A stretch of 6,700 nt of DNA from Promethearchaeota archaeon. Lineage in GTDB: Archaea; Asgardarchaeota; Lokiarchaeia; Sigynarchaeales; SOKP01. Position 1 is the first letter of the stretch; each line of letters opens with the position of its first letter. Made by a program: the position numbers and the translations under genes. The notes beneath the pieces were generated by a model, which had not been told where the DNA came from, searched no databases, and saw only the letters and a list, made by a program, of their open reading frames with translations. The stretch lies in the NCBI GenBank assembly GCA_016839845.1, contig JAEOTL010000079.1:1-6700 (forward strand), given 5' to 3'. Positions 1 to 6,700 of this stretch are shown here, in pieces.

Positions 1-990
1 ATATCTTCTTAAATGATGCGCTTCATCAAATATTACAATATCCCATGATATGCTTGATAATAATTCGATATAATTTTTATTTCGAGCAAACTGAAGTGAA
101 CAAATAATTAAATTATCATAATAGAAAGGATTCTGGAGTATATCTGGATGTTTATAACTGCCTTTCCGTTTTAATTCTTTAACTTTCTTGCCATCATAAA
201 TAGTAAATTCGAGATTGAATTTGTTACTCATTTCAAAGGCCCATTGTTTCACAAGCGAAGCAGGGACGATGATTAAAATACGTTCTGCCAAATCTCTTGC
301 TATCATCTCCTTAATATAAATACCTGCTTCAATTGTTTTTCCAAGGCCAACCTCATCTGCTAAAATAATTCTTGGAAAAAACTCTTCTGCTAACCTATGT
401 GTTACATTTATCTGATGTGGCATTAAAGTTAAACGTGAATTAGTAATACATTTAATCTGATACGATTTGTAATAAGAATAGAATAAATTTGCCCAATATT
501 TAATTAAAAAATTTGTTGGAGAGTCTATATTCTGTTTTGAAATCAGCGTTTTTATCGGTGTTTCATATTTAGAATAAATTTCATTTTCAAAAATTTGAGA
601 TTTTTTACCATCCTCTTTTAAAAATTCATAAGATATTACACCATCCTGAAATAGGAAATCTTTTGTATTTATATATCCAATTCCATGTTTAGTAACTATT
701 TTATCATTTAGCTCATAAACATAGTGAATAAGATCAATCGAGTGGATTATTTTAATGATATTATTTTTAAATGAGACTTTGTATTTACATACAATATTCG
801 TATCTTCATCATCTAAGGCTTTTGATGTTGGGATTTCTAACTTTCTTATTACACGTCCTACTCCTAAATCTGGATTTAACCTATATATAACTAAATTCCC
901 GACATTGAACTTTTGTCCTTGACAATAAATATTAAAACATTTAGAAAATCTTGATTTTAATTCCTTACTACAGAAGGGACATGCAAACAT
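1..990 (-). CDS. SNF2/RapA-type helicase with N-terminal zinc-ribbon-like motif (N-terminal 330 residues; 3' end beyond left edge)
   Basis: The minus-strand frame is open from ATG at 990 to the left edge. A TGA lies directly upstream at 993-991, so this is the only ATG start available. The protein begins with cysteines C4, C7, C18 and C23, a CPFC-type zinc-ribbon-like motif. Next comes a beta-rich stretch (about 28-150) with two glycine turns (NPDLGVGRV at 39-47, HGIGY at 102-106) reminiscent of the Tudor/KOW-like modules at the start of RapA. The ATPase core starts near 185: an MPHQ element (Q193), Walker A ADEVGLGKT at 211-219 (K218), motif Ia with VPASLVKQW at 242-250, and motif II DEAH at 322-325. 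The ADEVGLGKTIEAG signature is typical of RapA/HepA-like SNF2 ATPases, which translocate on double-stranded DNA to remodel or displace bound proteins. Motifs III-VI and the C-terminus lie outside the window. RNA polymerase recycling, repair and defence (DrmD-like) roles are all possible; nothing nearby decides between them. Confidence 0.88.
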   Translation of the reverse strand, partial: MFACPFCSKELKSRFSKCFNIYCQGQKFNVGNLVIYRLNPDLGVGRVIRKLEIPTSKALDDEDTNIVCKYKVSFKNNIIKIIHSIDLIHYVYELNDKIVTKHGIGYINTKDFLFQDGVISYEFLKEDGKKSQIFENEIYSKYETPIKTLISKQNIDSPTNFLIKYWANLFYSYYKSYQIKCITNSRLTLMPHQINVTHRLAEEFFPRIILADEVGLGKTIEAGIYIKEMIARDLAERILIIVPASLVKQWAFEMSNKFNLEFTIYDGKKVKELKRKGSYKHPDILQNPFYYDNLIICSLQFARNKNYIELLSSISWDIVIFDEAHHLRRY

Positions 991-2032: not shown

Positions 2033-4795
2033 ATGACAGTGTCTAATGATAAAGTTGCCAGAGATAAAATCAAGGGAACAGCTTCAATAGAGTTGCTTAA
2101 AAAAGTAAATACTGCTGCAAATTATTGTTACTCATGTAACAAATGCAATAATGTATGTCCAACTGCTTTTCTTGACATCTTTTATCCACGTAGTTTAATT
2201 ACAGATTTAACTTTTCTAACACCAGAAGAAGCATTGCAGAACAATGATATTTGGAAGTGTCTTACCTGTGGGTTATGTTCAATCTATTGTCCCATGACTA
2301 AGGAAGAAACTGGAGTAAATTTCACACAGATTATTAAGGATCTTCGTTCTCTTGCTTCAGAGTATAGGCCATTACAAGATGGATTAATAAGTTGTAATCA
2401 TGAGAGGGTATATTCAAGTCTACCGAAATTAATGGCTGAAGATAAAATTAAATTTACTAACAAAATAGGGTTCCTTGATGGAACTGGATTAAAAACAACT
2501 GATAAGGGAGAGATAGGCTATTTTATGGGATGCGTTTCCTTTTTGACGGGTTCTGCTCCATGTGTCGTTGGATGTCCCGCAGGAGTAGACGTTCAAGGCT
2601 ATGTATCACTTATCGCAGAAGGAAAATACCAAGAAGCTCTCGATCTTATTAGAGAAACCAATCCATTACCCTATTTATGTGGGAGGATTTGCACAGCTCA
2701 ATGTGCTTTAAATTGTAACCGTGAACATTTTGATGATCCAGTAGCTATTCGCGAACTTAAAAGGTTTGTTTGTGATTGGGAAACTGAACATCCTAACCAA
2801 AGTAAAATAAAACCTGTACCACAAACTAAAGAAAAAGTCGCCATTATTGGTGCAGGGCCGGGTGGTTTATCAGCAGCTTACTTTCTCGCAAGAATGGGAT
2901 ATAAACCAACTATTTTTGAGAAAGGAGATAAAACTGGGGGAGTAGTAAGATATGGTGTTCCACAATACAGACTTTCTGATGAAGCTCTTGACCATGATAT
3001 AGAGTTTATAAAAAATATGGGAGTCGAAATCGTTTTAAACAAAGAATTTGGTCCAGATTTCACAATAGAAGATATTTGGAAACAAGGTTTTAAAGCAATA
3101 TTTATTGCTGTCGGCTTATATGTGCCCAAAACTCTTAGACTTGAGGGAGAAGATTTACCTAACGTGGATGTAGCAATTGACTTCCTTTTAGAGCGGAAAT
3201 ATAAATGTGTGGAAAATCCAGAAGAGTTTAAAGGTAAGACTTTTGGAATCATTGGAGGGGGTGCAGTAGCGGTTGATGTTGGTGAAACAGCAATTCGATT
3301 AGGAGCAATAAAGGCTGATCTTGTCGATATTTTAACTGAAGAGGCTTTAAAGAATGTGCTTAAGGATTTACATGAAGCTGAGAGAGAAGTTATGGAATAC
3401 CATTTTGAGACTTCAACTGCAAACATCACCCAAGAACCTGATGGAAAATTAGCATTAAATTGCTATAAAATTGAATGGGGTACTCCTGATCCCAAAACAG
3501 GAAGGAGACCATTAAATAAAATTGAAGGATCAGAATTCAAGATTGTTGTTGATCATATTGTTATAGCTATTGGTCAAGGACTTGATGCAGAACCTATTAA
3601 TGCTGCTACAGAAAATCAGCTAAAAATTGAAAGGGGGAAAATTGTAGTAGATGACTTAACTTATGAGACTGGCATCCCAGGGGTTTTTGCGGGTGGTGAT
3701 ATAATTTATAATTCTCTGATGTGTGCTGTTGATGCCATAGGAGATGGTAGAGAAGCGTCTTACACAATTGATCGATATCTCCGAGGTCTTGATTTAAAAG
3801 AAAGTAGAATTAGAAAGAATGACTTAAAACGATCTACTATTCCTAAAAAATATATTCAAACCCAGATGTGTCAGGATATGAATTTTATGCCTGGATCAGA
3901 GAGATTAGTTTGCTTTGACGAAATGGAATTAGGTTTCACAGAGGAACAAGCTAAGAAAGAGGCAAATCGATGTTTGAACTGCAATTGTTGTTGTAATTCT
4001 GATCAAATCCCTGAAGATTTTGAAAAAGCACTAAATGAATCAGGTGTTATGATTTGCGATTATGGGAGTCAAGATATTTGGCCTTCGATTAATGCACCTA
4101 ATTATTATCAGATTCCCAAAAGTGTAATTGGTATCTTAAATCAAAATGATATAACTCCAGTTGTTTTACCAGAAGAGAAATGTTGCGGGCATGATAGTCT
4201 TTGGCGGGGAGATGTTGAAACCTTTAAAAAACTAGCCGAGTATAACGTAAAATTGTTTAAAGAAGCAGGAGTTAAAACGTTAATCTTTAGCTGCGCTGAA
4301 GGATACTATACTTGGAAAAATGAATATAAAAAGCTATTTAAAGGCAGTGATGTCTTCGATTTTGATATTTATCACATTACAGAATATATTCTTAAAGAAA
4401 AGCTACTAGAAGAGATAACATTTCCCGGTTTTGACAAAATTAAAATTACATACCATGACCCATGTAGGCTTGGGAGAATGAGTAATGTTTTTGATGCCCC
4501 TCGTGAAGTTTTGAAACTCATCCCATCTGTTGAATTGGTAGAAATGGAGGATTCTATGGAAAACGCAGATTGCTGTGGTGTCTCTGCATATGTGTCATGC
4601 AATCAAGATTCAAAAAAATTGCAGGAAAAAAAGATTTTGCAAGCCATAGAGACGGGAGCAGATTACCTTATTACTGCATGCCCTAAATGTATTGCTCACC
4701 TAAATTGTTATCTAAATGAGAACCGAGAATTAAAAGATAAAATAAAGGTTATCGATCTCGTAAGTTTTCTCGGAAAATTACTCTTTCTACTTTAG
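2033..4795 (+). CDS. HdrD-like protein with an internal GltD/NfnB/DsrL-like FAD-NAD(P)H oxidoreductase
   Basis: A 920-residue cytosolic redox protein. The N-terminus is an HdrC-type double ferredoxin: C32, C35, C38, C42-P and C76, C79, C82, C86-P. A CCG domain then begins with YFMGC (C167). Right after it comes a full oxidoreductase module: APC177VVGC181P, C216-x3-C220-x3-C224-x3-C228, an FAD Rossmann motif G273-x-G275-x2-G278 with E296 at the end of the second strand, GVPQYRL at 308-314, a pyridine-nucleotide motif G408-x-G410-x2-A413, AGGD at 553-556, and a C-terminal cysteine motif with C647, C650 and C652-C654. The CCG domain then resumes (about 686-760) with C717-C718-G and C754AEG. A second, complete CCG domain follows: C811, C847-C848-G, C883-x2-C886. 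In HdrD, CCG domains hold noncubane [4Fe-4S] clusters that reduce heterodisulfides; GltD-type modules exchange electrons with NAD(P)H. The likely job is electron transfer between a pyridine nucleotide and a disulfide, quinone or protein partner. The usual NADPH-binding YRR is absent after the second Rossmann fold. Substrate and direction are unknown. Confidence 0.88.
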   Translation: MTVSNDKVARDKIKGTASIELLKKVNTAANYCYSCNKCNNVCPTAFLDIFYPRSLITDLTFLTPEEALQNNDIWKCLTCGLCSIYCPMTKEETGVNFTQIIKDLRSLASEYRPLQDGLISCNHERVYSSLPKLMAEDKIKFTNKIGFLDGTGLKTTDKGEIGYFMGCVSFLTGSAPCVVGCPAGVDVQGYVSLIAEGKYQEALDLIRETNPLPYLCGRICTAQCALNCNREHFDDPVAIRELKRFVCDWETEHPNQSKIKPVPQTKEKVAIIGAGPGGLSAAYFLARMGYKPTIFEKGDKTGGVVRYGVPQYRLSDEALDHDIEFIKNMGVEIVLNKEFGPDFTIEDIWKQGFKAIFIAVGLYVPKTLRLEGEDLPNVDVAIDFLLERKYKCVENPEEFKGKTFGIIGGGAVAVDVGETAIRLGAIKADLVDILTEEALKNVLKDLHEAEREVMEYHFETSTANITQEPDGKLALNCYKIEWGTPDPKTGRRPLNKIEGSEFKIVVDHIVIAIGQGLDAEPINAATENQLKIERGKIVVDDLTYETGIPGVFAGGDIIYNSLMCAVDAIGDGREASYTIDRYLRGLDLKESRIRKNDLKRSTIPKKYIQTQMCQDMNFMPGSERLVCFDEMELGFTEEQAKKEANRCLNCNCCCNSDQIPEDFEKALNESGVMICDYGSQDIWPSINAPNYYQIPKSVIGILNQNDITPVVLPEEKCCGHDSLWRGDVETFKKLAEYNVKLFKEAGVKTLIFSCAEGYYTWKNEYKKLFKGSDVFDFDIYHITEYILKEKLLEEITFPGFDKIKITYHDPCRLGRMSNVFDAPREVLKLIPSVELVEMEDSMENADCCGVSAYVSCNQDSKKLQEKKILQAIETGADYLITACPKCIAHLNCYLNENRELKDKIKVIDLVSFLGKLLFLL

Positions 4796-4858: not shown

Positions 4859-4923
4859 AAAAAGAATAATCTCTTACAAAAAAGCAATGGGCATTTTTCA
4901 AATTAACATTAAAATTGAATATT

Positions 4924-6700
4924 ATGAGTGAAAAAGAAATCGCGTGGGATTTACGCGAAATGTTTTCTGGATGTAATGATCCAAAAATCTCAAAAAATAT
5001 GGATGCTCTTTTGAAGGATTCGGATGGGATAGTTAAGGAATATAAAGGAAAAATTAACACTTCTACTTTTACTACTCAAAATTTACTTAACCTCTTAAAA
5101 AAACAAGAAAAAATTCTTGCAGATGTGGAAGAATTAAAGGTTTTTTCAGAAAATTCATTCAATGCAAATATGACACTTCCAGAAACCAAAAATCTTTTTA
5201 ACAAATTTAAGGATTTTCATAGTACTATTTTAAAAAAATTAGCATTTCTAGAAATTGAAATTGGAAAACTTATCAATCAAAACCCACAGTTAATAAATGA
5301 TGAGTCTCTTATTAATTATAAAAATTATCTTGTAAAAATAAAGAGGAAATTTCCTTTTAATCTATCAGAGTCTGAAGAAAAGTTAATTCTAGCAAAAGAC
5401 CAATATGGGGCAATCGCATGGCAGCAATTAAAAGAGTCTTGGTTAAGTTCGAAAAAGTTTAAAGTTACTATAGAAGGGCAAGAAAAAATTGTCTCGCATA
5501 GTGAAGCAAACTTATTAAGATGGCATCCTCATAGAGAAACGAGGATATCTGCAACAAAATCAGTTTTTGGTTCAATTGAAAAAGAGATTGAAATATATTC
5601 TTCCGCATTACGTAATATTTCTGGTAATTGGGTGAAAGTTTCGAATCATAGAGGTTACAATAATCCATTCCTTCAAAGCCTTATTGATAATGAAATTACT
5701 CAAGAGACCATAGATAATATGATAAGAGCAATAGAAGAAAATATCGGAGTATATCATAGATTCTTGAAAATTAAAACAAAATTGTTAAATCTACCAAAAT
5801 TAGGAGGTGTTGATACTTGGGCATACCTTCCTTTTGAAAAAAAGTATACATGGGATGAAACCAAAAATCTAATCCTCCAAATATATGACAACTTTGATAA
5901 TTTATTCGGGGACATTATACGTGATCTATTCAAGAAAAGTCATATTGATGCTAGATCAAGAGAAGGTAAACTTGGTGCCGGTTATTGTTTTCCTTGGTAT
6001 AATGGAAAATCTGCACATATTCTAATGTCATTTAATGGATTATTAAACAACATTGCTATTCTTGCTCATGAATTAGGGCATGCTGTTCATTACTGTTTAT
6101 CATCTCAAGATCAAACATTCTTTAATTATATGCCAGGTCTAATTGTAGATGAGATTGGGGGCATTTTTGGAGAATTATTAATGAATAATTTTTTACTCAA
6201 AACATTTGAATCTACTAATGAAAAAATAATATTATTAACTAATCGATTAACTGGTGAAGGGGGTGCGATCTTTTCAACGTGTTCGTGGATGTGGTTTGAA
6301 CAAAATCTTTATGAAGCAATCGAAAATGGGGAATATTTAGATAGTAGTACAATCTCTAAATATTGGTGTGCTGCGAGAGATAAGATTTATGGAAATTCTG
6401 TTGAGTGGTTTGACGAGATGAAATATAATTGGGCGGTTATACCGCATTTCTATTTTCCTACCGATCGCTTTTATAATTATCCATATATATACGCTCAGCT
6501 CTTTGTTTATGCTTTATATCAATCTTATAAAAAGGAAGGGGAAAATTTTGTATCGAAATTTAAGAAATTTTTAGGCGCTGGTAGCAGCGTATCTCCAGAA
6601 GAGCTAGGTAACATTGTAGATTTGGACATAACCAATCCTAAATTTTGGCAACTTGGAATGAGACAATATGAGAAATGGGTAGTTGAGTTAGAAAAACTCA
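4924..6700 (+). CDS. pepF: Oligoendopeptidase F, M3B zinc metallopeptidase (last few residues beyond right edge)
   Basis: The frame stays open for 592 codons from ATG 4924 to the window end. An in-frame TAA at 4867 bounds it upstream; a TTG at 4915 is a less likely start. Cytosolic M3 peptidases of this family cleave short peptides, typically in peptide turnover. The N-terminus (WDLREMF at 8-14) is the usual PepF opening. Family landmarks follow: REGKLGAGYC at 346-355, then the zinc site H382-E383-L384-G385-H386 with E383 as catalytic base and E410, 28 residues after H382, as the expected third zinc ligand (in DEIGGIFGE). The C-terminal region PHFYFPTDRFYNYPY (507-521) supplies the His/Tyr residues that stabilise the transition state in this family. 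The closing LGAGSSVSPEEL and FWQLGM segments match PepF C-termini, so probably only a few residues are missing. There is no signal peptide. It has its own upstream spacer and likely its own promoter, and no evident functional link to the redox genes. Confidence 0.93.
   Translation, partial: MSEKEIAWDLREMFSGCNDPKISKNMDALLKDSDGIVKEYKGKINTSTFTTQNLLNLLKKQEKILADVEELKVFSENSFNANMTLPETKNLFNKFKDFHSTILKKLAFLEIEIGKLINQNPQLINDESLINYKNYLVKIKRKFPFNLSESEEKLILAKDQYGAIAWQQLKESWLSSKKFKVTIEGQEKIVSHSEANLLRWHPHRETRISATKSVFGSIEKEIEIYSSALRNISGNWVKVSNHRGYNNPFLQSLIDNEITQETIDNMIRAIEENIGVYHRFLKIKTKLLNLPKLGGVDTWAYLPFEKKYTWDETKNLILQIYDNFDNLFGDIIRDLFKKSHIDARSREGKLGAGYCFPWYNGKSAHILMSFNGLLNNIAILAHELGHAVHYCLSSQDQTFFNYMPGLIVDEIGGIFGELLMNNFLLKTFESTNEKIILLTNRLTGEGGAIFSTCSWMWFEQNLYEAIENGEYLDSSTISKYWCAARDKIYGNSVEWFDEMKYNWAVIPHFYFPTDRFYNYPYIYAQLFVYALYQSYKKEGENFVSKFKKFLGAGSSVSPEELGNIVDLDITNPKFWQLGMRQYEKWVVELEKL

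Follow-up and report, generated by a model that had tools for sequence, protein, structure and literature searches.

Sequence evidence for a circularly permuted GltD/NfnB-type module nested inside an HdrD-type protein of Lokiarchaeia

Architecture and occurrence of the nested protein

The window analysed here is the whole stretch of 6,700 nucleotides at positions 1 to 6,700 of contig JAEOTL010000079.1 (assembly GCA_016839845.1, Promethearchaeota archaeon, Lokiarchaeia), and its subject is one gene encoding 920 residues (Table 1). Named by architecture only, the product is an HdrD-type protein, comprising an HdrC-like dicluster ferredoxin part and then two CCG domains in a single chain, the first of which (CCG1) is interrupted by a flavoprotein cassette. 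Judged from its sequence, the cassette is a circularly permuted module of the GltD/NfnB type. As an overall explanation it is considered fairly probable that this nested, permuted and NADH-linked module is wired to CCG1 through a shared distal [4Fe-4S] cluster.

The initial annotation had placed HdrC-like ferredoxin clusters (residues 32-86) and the YFMGC opening of a CCG domain (163-167) first in the chain, and both are found there, the former within a Fer4_8 match. The cysteines of this ferredoxin part (C32, C35, C38, C42, C76, C79, C82 and C86) are all invariant in the 106 nested rows compared. The annotation had also described a complete flavin adenine dinucleotide (FAD)/pyridine-nucleotide oxidoreductase at about 174-685. 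The domains themselves stand, as Fer4_20 (holding C177, C181, C216, C220, C224, C228 and K243) and Pyr_redox_2 with the cysteines of the distal and proximal clusters; their order is that of a circular permutant and not of a standard GltD. Behind the insert CCG1 resumes with YYQIPKSV (691-698) and CCGHD (717-721), as had been proposed, and a second CCG domain (CCG2) follows. The usual CCG-domain motif has five cysteines. It is complete in CCG2 (C811, C847, C848, C883 and C886, conserved, with C811 in 105/106 and one gap), and Gly757 occupies the fifth place in CCG1 in 106/106. The top NCBIfam matches were GltD-like families at about 168-658 and TfrB, LdhH and GlpC at about 690-915, those shown all scoring below their curated cut-offs. 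HdrE was not identified among the four window proteins scanned with Pfam.

The homologue figures rest on rows P0001-P0113, within the best 120 of 907 matches listed. A search for homologues with the same nesting, suggested in the initial annotation, gave at least 105 of 890-935 residues among these rows; the others fall outside that length range and were left out. A scan of genome contigs produced 80 loci, of which L001-L046, titled Lokiarchaeota or Lokiarchaeia, match the nested protein, some being cut at contig ends. A match at E 1e-100 or better was obtained in 57 of 227 genomes of one phylum (that of G001), and 33 of the 227 have a near full-length copy (start by residue 20, end after 910) as read from the match rows; the remaining matching genomes contain fragments or other GltD proteins. 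In L038 (3-4120) and L044 (1-3478) the match spans exceed the need of the matched residues, which may reflect split genes or neighbouring copies. The data derive from metagenome-assembled genomes, and an artefact of assembly or annotation was considered; it is scarcely conceivable, because the 105 homologues have the same architecture. An assembly chimera was rejected, full-length homologues coming from many assemblies and one locus (L008) lying in a 3.34-Mb chromosome record.

Interruption of the first CCG domain

A profile of insert-free HdrD comprised 105 rows with both seam motifs, of 108 examined, leaving out P0177, a fragment of a nested protein. It matches the window protein in two pieces, at residues 6-171 (profile 6-169, 187.7 bits) and 690-919 (profile 179-412, 333.3 bits), and the cassette takes the place of 9 columns. 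The spacing from FxGC to KCCGH is 42 residues in all 105 insert-free rows and 540-555 in 101 of the 105 nested rows, the remaining four having RCCGH. The insert-free relatives, identified by a search with the joined flanks, are 46-54% identical over 93-100% of these flanks. The initial annotation had proposed to look for such HdrD proteins in related genomes, and their named sources are nearly all Asgard metagenome-assembled genomes (e.g. P0125, L053 and L055, with the same scaffold and no cassette). Their length of 387-418 residues agrees with the earlier estimate that about 408 residues, close to stand-alone length, are left when the insert is removed. Finally, the C-side within the full protein gave 111.8 bits against a CCG1 profile. 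Joining the true N-side raised the score to 127.0 bits and joining a control stretch gave 113.8 bits; by itself the N-side scored weakly (6.4-9.0 bits).

The split profile match, the seam spacing and the CCG1 score of the joined flanks together place the interruption of the first CCG domain in the loop right behind the YFxGC motif. Since insert-free relatives match the joined flanks and the profile splits, the arrangement is read as nesting and not as end-to-end fusion, in agreement with the initial annotation. End-to-end fusion was rejected for the window family and holds for the proteins of anaerobic methanotrophic archaea (ANME) described below.

A vestigial CCG1, with a YFMGC stub that does not fold with residues 690-763 and with CCG2 as the only working domain, would suit the Gly at the fifth cysteine place and the 549 residues between C167 and C717. 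It is nevertheless quite unlikely: no nested row compared varies at C167, C717, C718 or C754, and a single-domain score is obtained when the two halves are joined. The insert is not the cause of this Gly, because the insert-free relatives have it too (CxEG in 104/105).

Permuted order of the module

In GltD and NfnB of standard order, an N-terminal segment ending in RCxxC stands immediately ahead of CxxxCP. This segment is absent from the front of the cassette and is placed behind the module. Against a profile of 22 standard-order N-termini, residues 624-650 scored 32.8 bits (domain E 7e-11, 30-protein set). The same residues align with 16-42 of 4ylf_B, where 175-585 align with 45-461, and residues 622-651 align with 17-46 of 5jca_L, where 175-583 align with 50-470. 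The short segment alignments are weak alone (8.6 bits for 4ylf_B, 6.1 bits for 5jca_L), and both fall directly before the module match. StnC (8oh5_C) matches residues 175-653 as a single piece and thus has the permuted order.

The motif was identified behind the module in 106/106 nested HdrD, 6/6 proteins nested in FrhB, 26/29 linear ANME proteins and 86 of the 88 further GltD-bearing proteins P0270-P0357. It lies ahead of the module in 25 of the 29 GltD-like frames of L094-L123 (six of them 853-938 residues and long enough for fusions), the other four having no recognisable CxxxCP; this last result is partly built in, since the profile was itself built with frames from this set. The front CxxC and the rear tail occur together in 0 of 302 GltD-like rows (Fisher p 0.037 for exclusivity, the front class having 2 of the 29 60%-representatives). 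Of 39 frames in which the front match to Fer4_20 is truncated, 21 show the first columns of this profile behind the module and the other 18 show no rear piece at E 1e-3. Taken together, these comparisons argue that the insert is a permuted GltD/NfnB-type module rather than a standard-order GltD. They also indicate that permutation is more widespread than nesting, four permuted proteins (P0334, P0337, P0342 and P0349) being of stand-alone length (549-550 residues).

The rear EAxRCLxC could instead be a separate C-terminal ferredoxin motif, the module being an ordinary GltD minus its front CxxC. In PMC7596348 the relative DsrL is described as having a C-terminal ferredoxin domain and no equivalent of Cys39, and further cysteines follow the rear tail of the nested proteins (C652 in 60/106, C653 in 106/106). 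This reading is very unlikely: the rear match to standard-order N-termini extends over 27 residues, beyond the CxxC alone, and the rear Fer4_20 columns and the 0/302 count given above also contradict it. In the Pfam scan no ferredoxin-family best stretch, as of a DsrL-type dicluster ferredoxin, was found between the cassette and CCG1.

For the permuted module, the counterparts of the insert ends 175 and 650 in 4ylf_B are residues 45 and 42. As these are three residues apart, the ends should lie close when folded, which is what insertion into a loop needs. Circular permutation could in this way explain how the cassette fits into the host domain.

Cluster ligands, nucleotide preference and a proposed electron route

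Invariant in all 106 nested rows are C167, C177, C228, C647, C650, C717, C718, C754 and K243. The ligands of the distal cluster in Thermotoga maritima NfnB are given as Cys39, 42, 47 and 100 in the relevant part of PMC7596348, and by their order these would correspond to C647, C650, C177 and C228. Because the rear segment appears to be the moved N-terminus, both insert ends probably share one [4Fe-4S] cluster. It would lie near C167, the first cysteine of CCG1, from which C177 is ten residues away.

According to PMC10482914 (structure entries 8OH5 and 8OH9), StnC has a GltD-like region at 102-565 and a linear FAD-C7-C6-C5 path, Lys170 coordinates C7 and the flavin does not bifurcate. The alignment sets K243 on Lys170 and R313 on Arg239, and C177, C228, C647 and C650 on C104, C155, C562 and C565 of StnC. 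Where StnC has this Lys on the proximal cluster, NfnB has Glu (portions of PMC10482914 and PMC7596348), and in the nested proteins the Glu of bifurcating NfnB is replaced by K243 in 106/106. Bifurcation as in NfnB, sending NADH electrons both to the CCG clusters and to ferredoxin, is therefore unlikely; moreover no NfnA gene is present in the window, and the neighbouring NfnB genes are separate. Such a flavin would accord with the NfnB-type fold, with the invariant R313, whose counterpart in StnC is equated with R201 of NfnB in the source passages, and with the nearby NfnA and NfnB genes counted below.

The YRR motif is associated with NADP use in the GltD/NfnB family in the portion of PMC7596348 consulted. 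Among 105 nested rows VDI replaces it in 69, YRR is kept in 35 and neither is present in one. The window protein belongs to the VDI clade, which has lost the NADP-type motif, and for this reason NADH is a likelier partner than NADPH. VDI was also identified in five of the six FrhB cassettes, the exception being P0116 (shorter, 682 residues), negative within the fixed window used.

From these features we infer the packing of residues 163-172 on 690-760 and a full electron route. The protein would be a soluble HdrD-type electron-transfer protein with its own NADH-linked flavin module in the CCG1 loop. The distal [4Fe-4S] cluster would be formed by C177 and C228 from the insert start and C647 and C650 from its end, where the two ends would meet beside the CCG1 cluster (C167, C717, C718 and C754). 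Electrons would run from NADH to FAD, the proximal cluster (with K243, as in StnC), the distal cluster, CCG1 and CCG2. The HdrC-like ferredoxin domain would be a third port and, as the gene neighbourhood suggests, may exchange electrons with an aldehyde:ferredoxin oxidoreductase (AOR) through its iron-sulfur (Fe-S) protein. The whole protein would thus join aldehyde oxidation to NAD(H) and to a disulfide-like site of the CCG type.

Gene neighbourhood

Neighbours were counted in 46 nested loci and in 18 insert-free loci of Lokiarchaea chosen among L047-L079, with L054 and L078 left aside; L039, L042 and L044, without a long nested match in this count, were scored as without neighbours. An AOR-family gene, so named from AFOR_N and AFOR_C matches in L001, was identified in 26 of the 46 nested loci and its ferredoxin-like partner in 22, and AOR was present in 17 of the 22 nested loci with more than 5 kb of sequence on both sides. 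A reductive-dehalogenase-like gene was found in 22/46, and NfnA and NfnB in 14/46 each. None of these five was found in the 18 insert-free loci, of which 13 have a nearby HdrA-type N-terminal piece. A peptidase homologous to that of the window lies between the nested gene and AOR in L006 and L009.

Several points weigh against the proposed explanation. The AOR gene is not in the window, where a peptidase gene comes next; no AOR was seen in 20/46 nested loci, many of them short, and five of the 22 well-flanked loci are without it. The missing fifth cysteine of CCG1 means that this domain may merely relay electrons. Since C653 is also invariant, the ligand set at the cassette end could differ from the one proposed. 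Lastly, permutation by itself does not cause nesting, as StnC and the stand-alone proteins of 549-550 residues are permuted too.

The features of the window are collected in Table 1. For the 286-residue neighbour, the name reductive-dehalogenase-like is a weak one, given that the score lies below the cut-off of 160.35 bits, and no Pfam match was obtained. In close relatives its homologue sits next to the nested gene, and in others it is a few kb away on the opposite strand. In L001 (13202-17961) and L016 (302-7677) the AOR-family gene, its Fe-S protein and HdrA-like and FrhB-like genes recur near the nested gene, a set that we take to recall the class II benzoyl-CoA reductase (Bam) gene sets. 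L026 (14546-17284) contains an FrhB-type part fused ahead of a standard-order NfnB (912 residues) and adjoining an NfnA-like gene, possibly an F420/NADPH/ferredoxin enzyme.

Table 1. Features of the 6,700-nucleotide window, with residue numbers of the 920-residue protein
Feature	Position	Strand	Evidence or remark
Nested HdrD/permuted-GltD gene	2033..4795	+	Intact open reading frame, 920 residues
HdrC-like ferredoxin part, residues 29-88	2117..2296	+	Pfam Fer4_8
CCG domain 1, first part, residues 155-171 (YFMGC 163-167, C167)	2495..2545	+	CCG1 profile columns 1-17
Inserted flavoprotein cassette, residues about 172-689	2546..4099	+	Gap between the two insert-free HdrD profile matches
Fer4_20 main part, residues 174-253 (profile 29-111)	2552..2791	+	Pfam
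FAD and NAD(P) domains, residues 268-572	2834..3748	+	Pyr_redox_2 (Pfam); VDI instead of YRR
Putative relocated N-terminal segment with CxxC (C647, C650), residues 624-650	3902..3982	+	Profile and structure-sequence alignment
CCG domain 1, remainder, residues 690-763 (C717, C718, C754; 757 = Gly)	4100..4321	+	Profiles
CCG domain 2, residues 805-890	4445..4702	+	Best of two Pfam CCG stretches
SNF2-type helicase gene, upstream	1-990	-	Homologue in 21/46 nested loci
Reductive-dehalogenase-like/QueG-like Fe-S protein, 286 residues	1082..1942	+	TIGR02486, 66.5 bits
M3-family peptidase gene, downstream	4915-6699	+	

Other hosts and history of the cassette

A second nested host is FrhB, where the permuted cassette lies in the C-terminal domain (L089, 883-3357; P0115-P0120). 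In L089 the FrhB_FdhB_C profile matches with positions 4-42 ahead of the cassette (22.1 bits, just below the cut-off of 23.3) and with 94-148 after it (50.7 bits), and PRK09325 matches with 8-137 before and 191-260 after, both below the whole-protein cut-off. Weak winged-helix-type matches (TFIIE_alpha and HVO_A0114, below cut-off) follow the FrhB/cassette part. A third host is HdrA: the HdrA of L053 (1648 residues) corresponds to that of L055 (1171 residues) with about 470 residues added near position 166. Lokiarchaeal HdrA of 1648 residues, directly downstream of an insert-free HdrD, occurs in L053 (9333-14279), where it carries the cassette, and also in L047 and L048.

Cassette trees comprised 74 rows in a first, quick version and 37 rows in the second; P0086, P0092 and P0270, in which the start motif was not found, were left out of the 37-row tree and of the 215-residue test. 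In both trees the FrhB cassettes fall among those of HdrD; the 37-row tree unites them with the clade of the window at support 100/100, and a long branch (0.71) leads to this joint group. A single origin of all HdrD cassettes was rejected by the approximately unbiased (AU) test, with p 6e-8 for the cassette and 0.010 when the NAD part was left out and the first 215 residues were used, the tested group having been defined after the first tree. The grouping and the AU rejection suggest that the cassette probably changed host while remaining nested. A tree of the scaffold was built with 49 of the 106 nested and 35 of the 105 insert-free rows, four ANME and four Dehalococcoidia. It requires a single switch between the nested and the insert-free state; support for the nested group is 0 owing to the long row P0113, and 84 for the 48 rows without it. 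We give even chances to the broader view that permuted GltD is a host-hopping NAD(P)H plug in archaea, with its ends meeting at one [4Fe-4S] cluster, that moved between nested hosts in Lokiarchaeia.

Comparison with known systems

The closest published case is type III HdrA, or HdrA9-11 of ANME-1, described in sections of PMC12054007 and PMC9012536. As in the window protein, a GltD/NfnB module of about 500 residues lies inside an Hdr protein and is a proposed entry for NAD(P)H electrons. The host there is HdrA and the site its ferredoxin domain, whereas the window protein has no GltD within an HdrA chain, its host being HdrD-type and its site CCG1. Permutation is not mentioned in the portions of the two papers drawn on. 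Open-licence articles of PubMed Central (PMC) yielded no paper that calls the GltD order a permutation and none on HdrD or FrhB as host, no search having been aimed at FrhB hosts alone. Already known, then, are the insertion of GltD in HdrA and the permuted order itself, as in StnC and the stand-alone proteins.

The GltD-HdrD fusions of ANME-1 and Syntropharchaeia (L058, L059, L063, L064, L072 and L075; P0241-P0269) comprise the same modules, with 37-38% identity in the best segment, but GltD comes first and HdrD next, end to end, unlike the nested protein. They measure 906-926 residues and are found on contigs titled Methanophagales, Methanosarcinales or Methanomicrobia. In the 74-row tree their cassette groups with those of other hosts, pointing to separate fusion events.

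StnC (8oh5_C) shares with the window protein a permuted GltD part (102-568) amid other Fe-S parts, the Lys170 equivalent of K243 and the linear FAD path. It differs in its NuoG/FdhF-like parts, in that no CCG domains are reported for it, and in keeping YRR, as read from the alignment. The best NCBIfam match of the cassette is PRK12771 (NF009410), an NAD(P)-binding protein, with residues 168-658 against 41-519 of the 566 model positions, so that the match runs through the rear tail. By that model the cassette is no member (406.9 bits, the cut-off being 516), and PRK12771 has no HdrD host.

Implications

By setting both ends at the wiring point, permutation offers a physical reason why a flavoprotein module recurs inside redox proteins. 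If the plug view is true, the module drops in beside an existing cluster (the ferredoxin of HdrA, the C-terminal domain of FrhB or the CCG domain of HdrD) and leaves the host fold intact. In this protein, where two cysteine pairs would make one cluster, the modular evolution of anaerobic electron-transfer enzymes becomes directly testable. Lokiarchaea gain a candidate enzyme that would join aldehyde oxidation, NADH and CCG chemistry.

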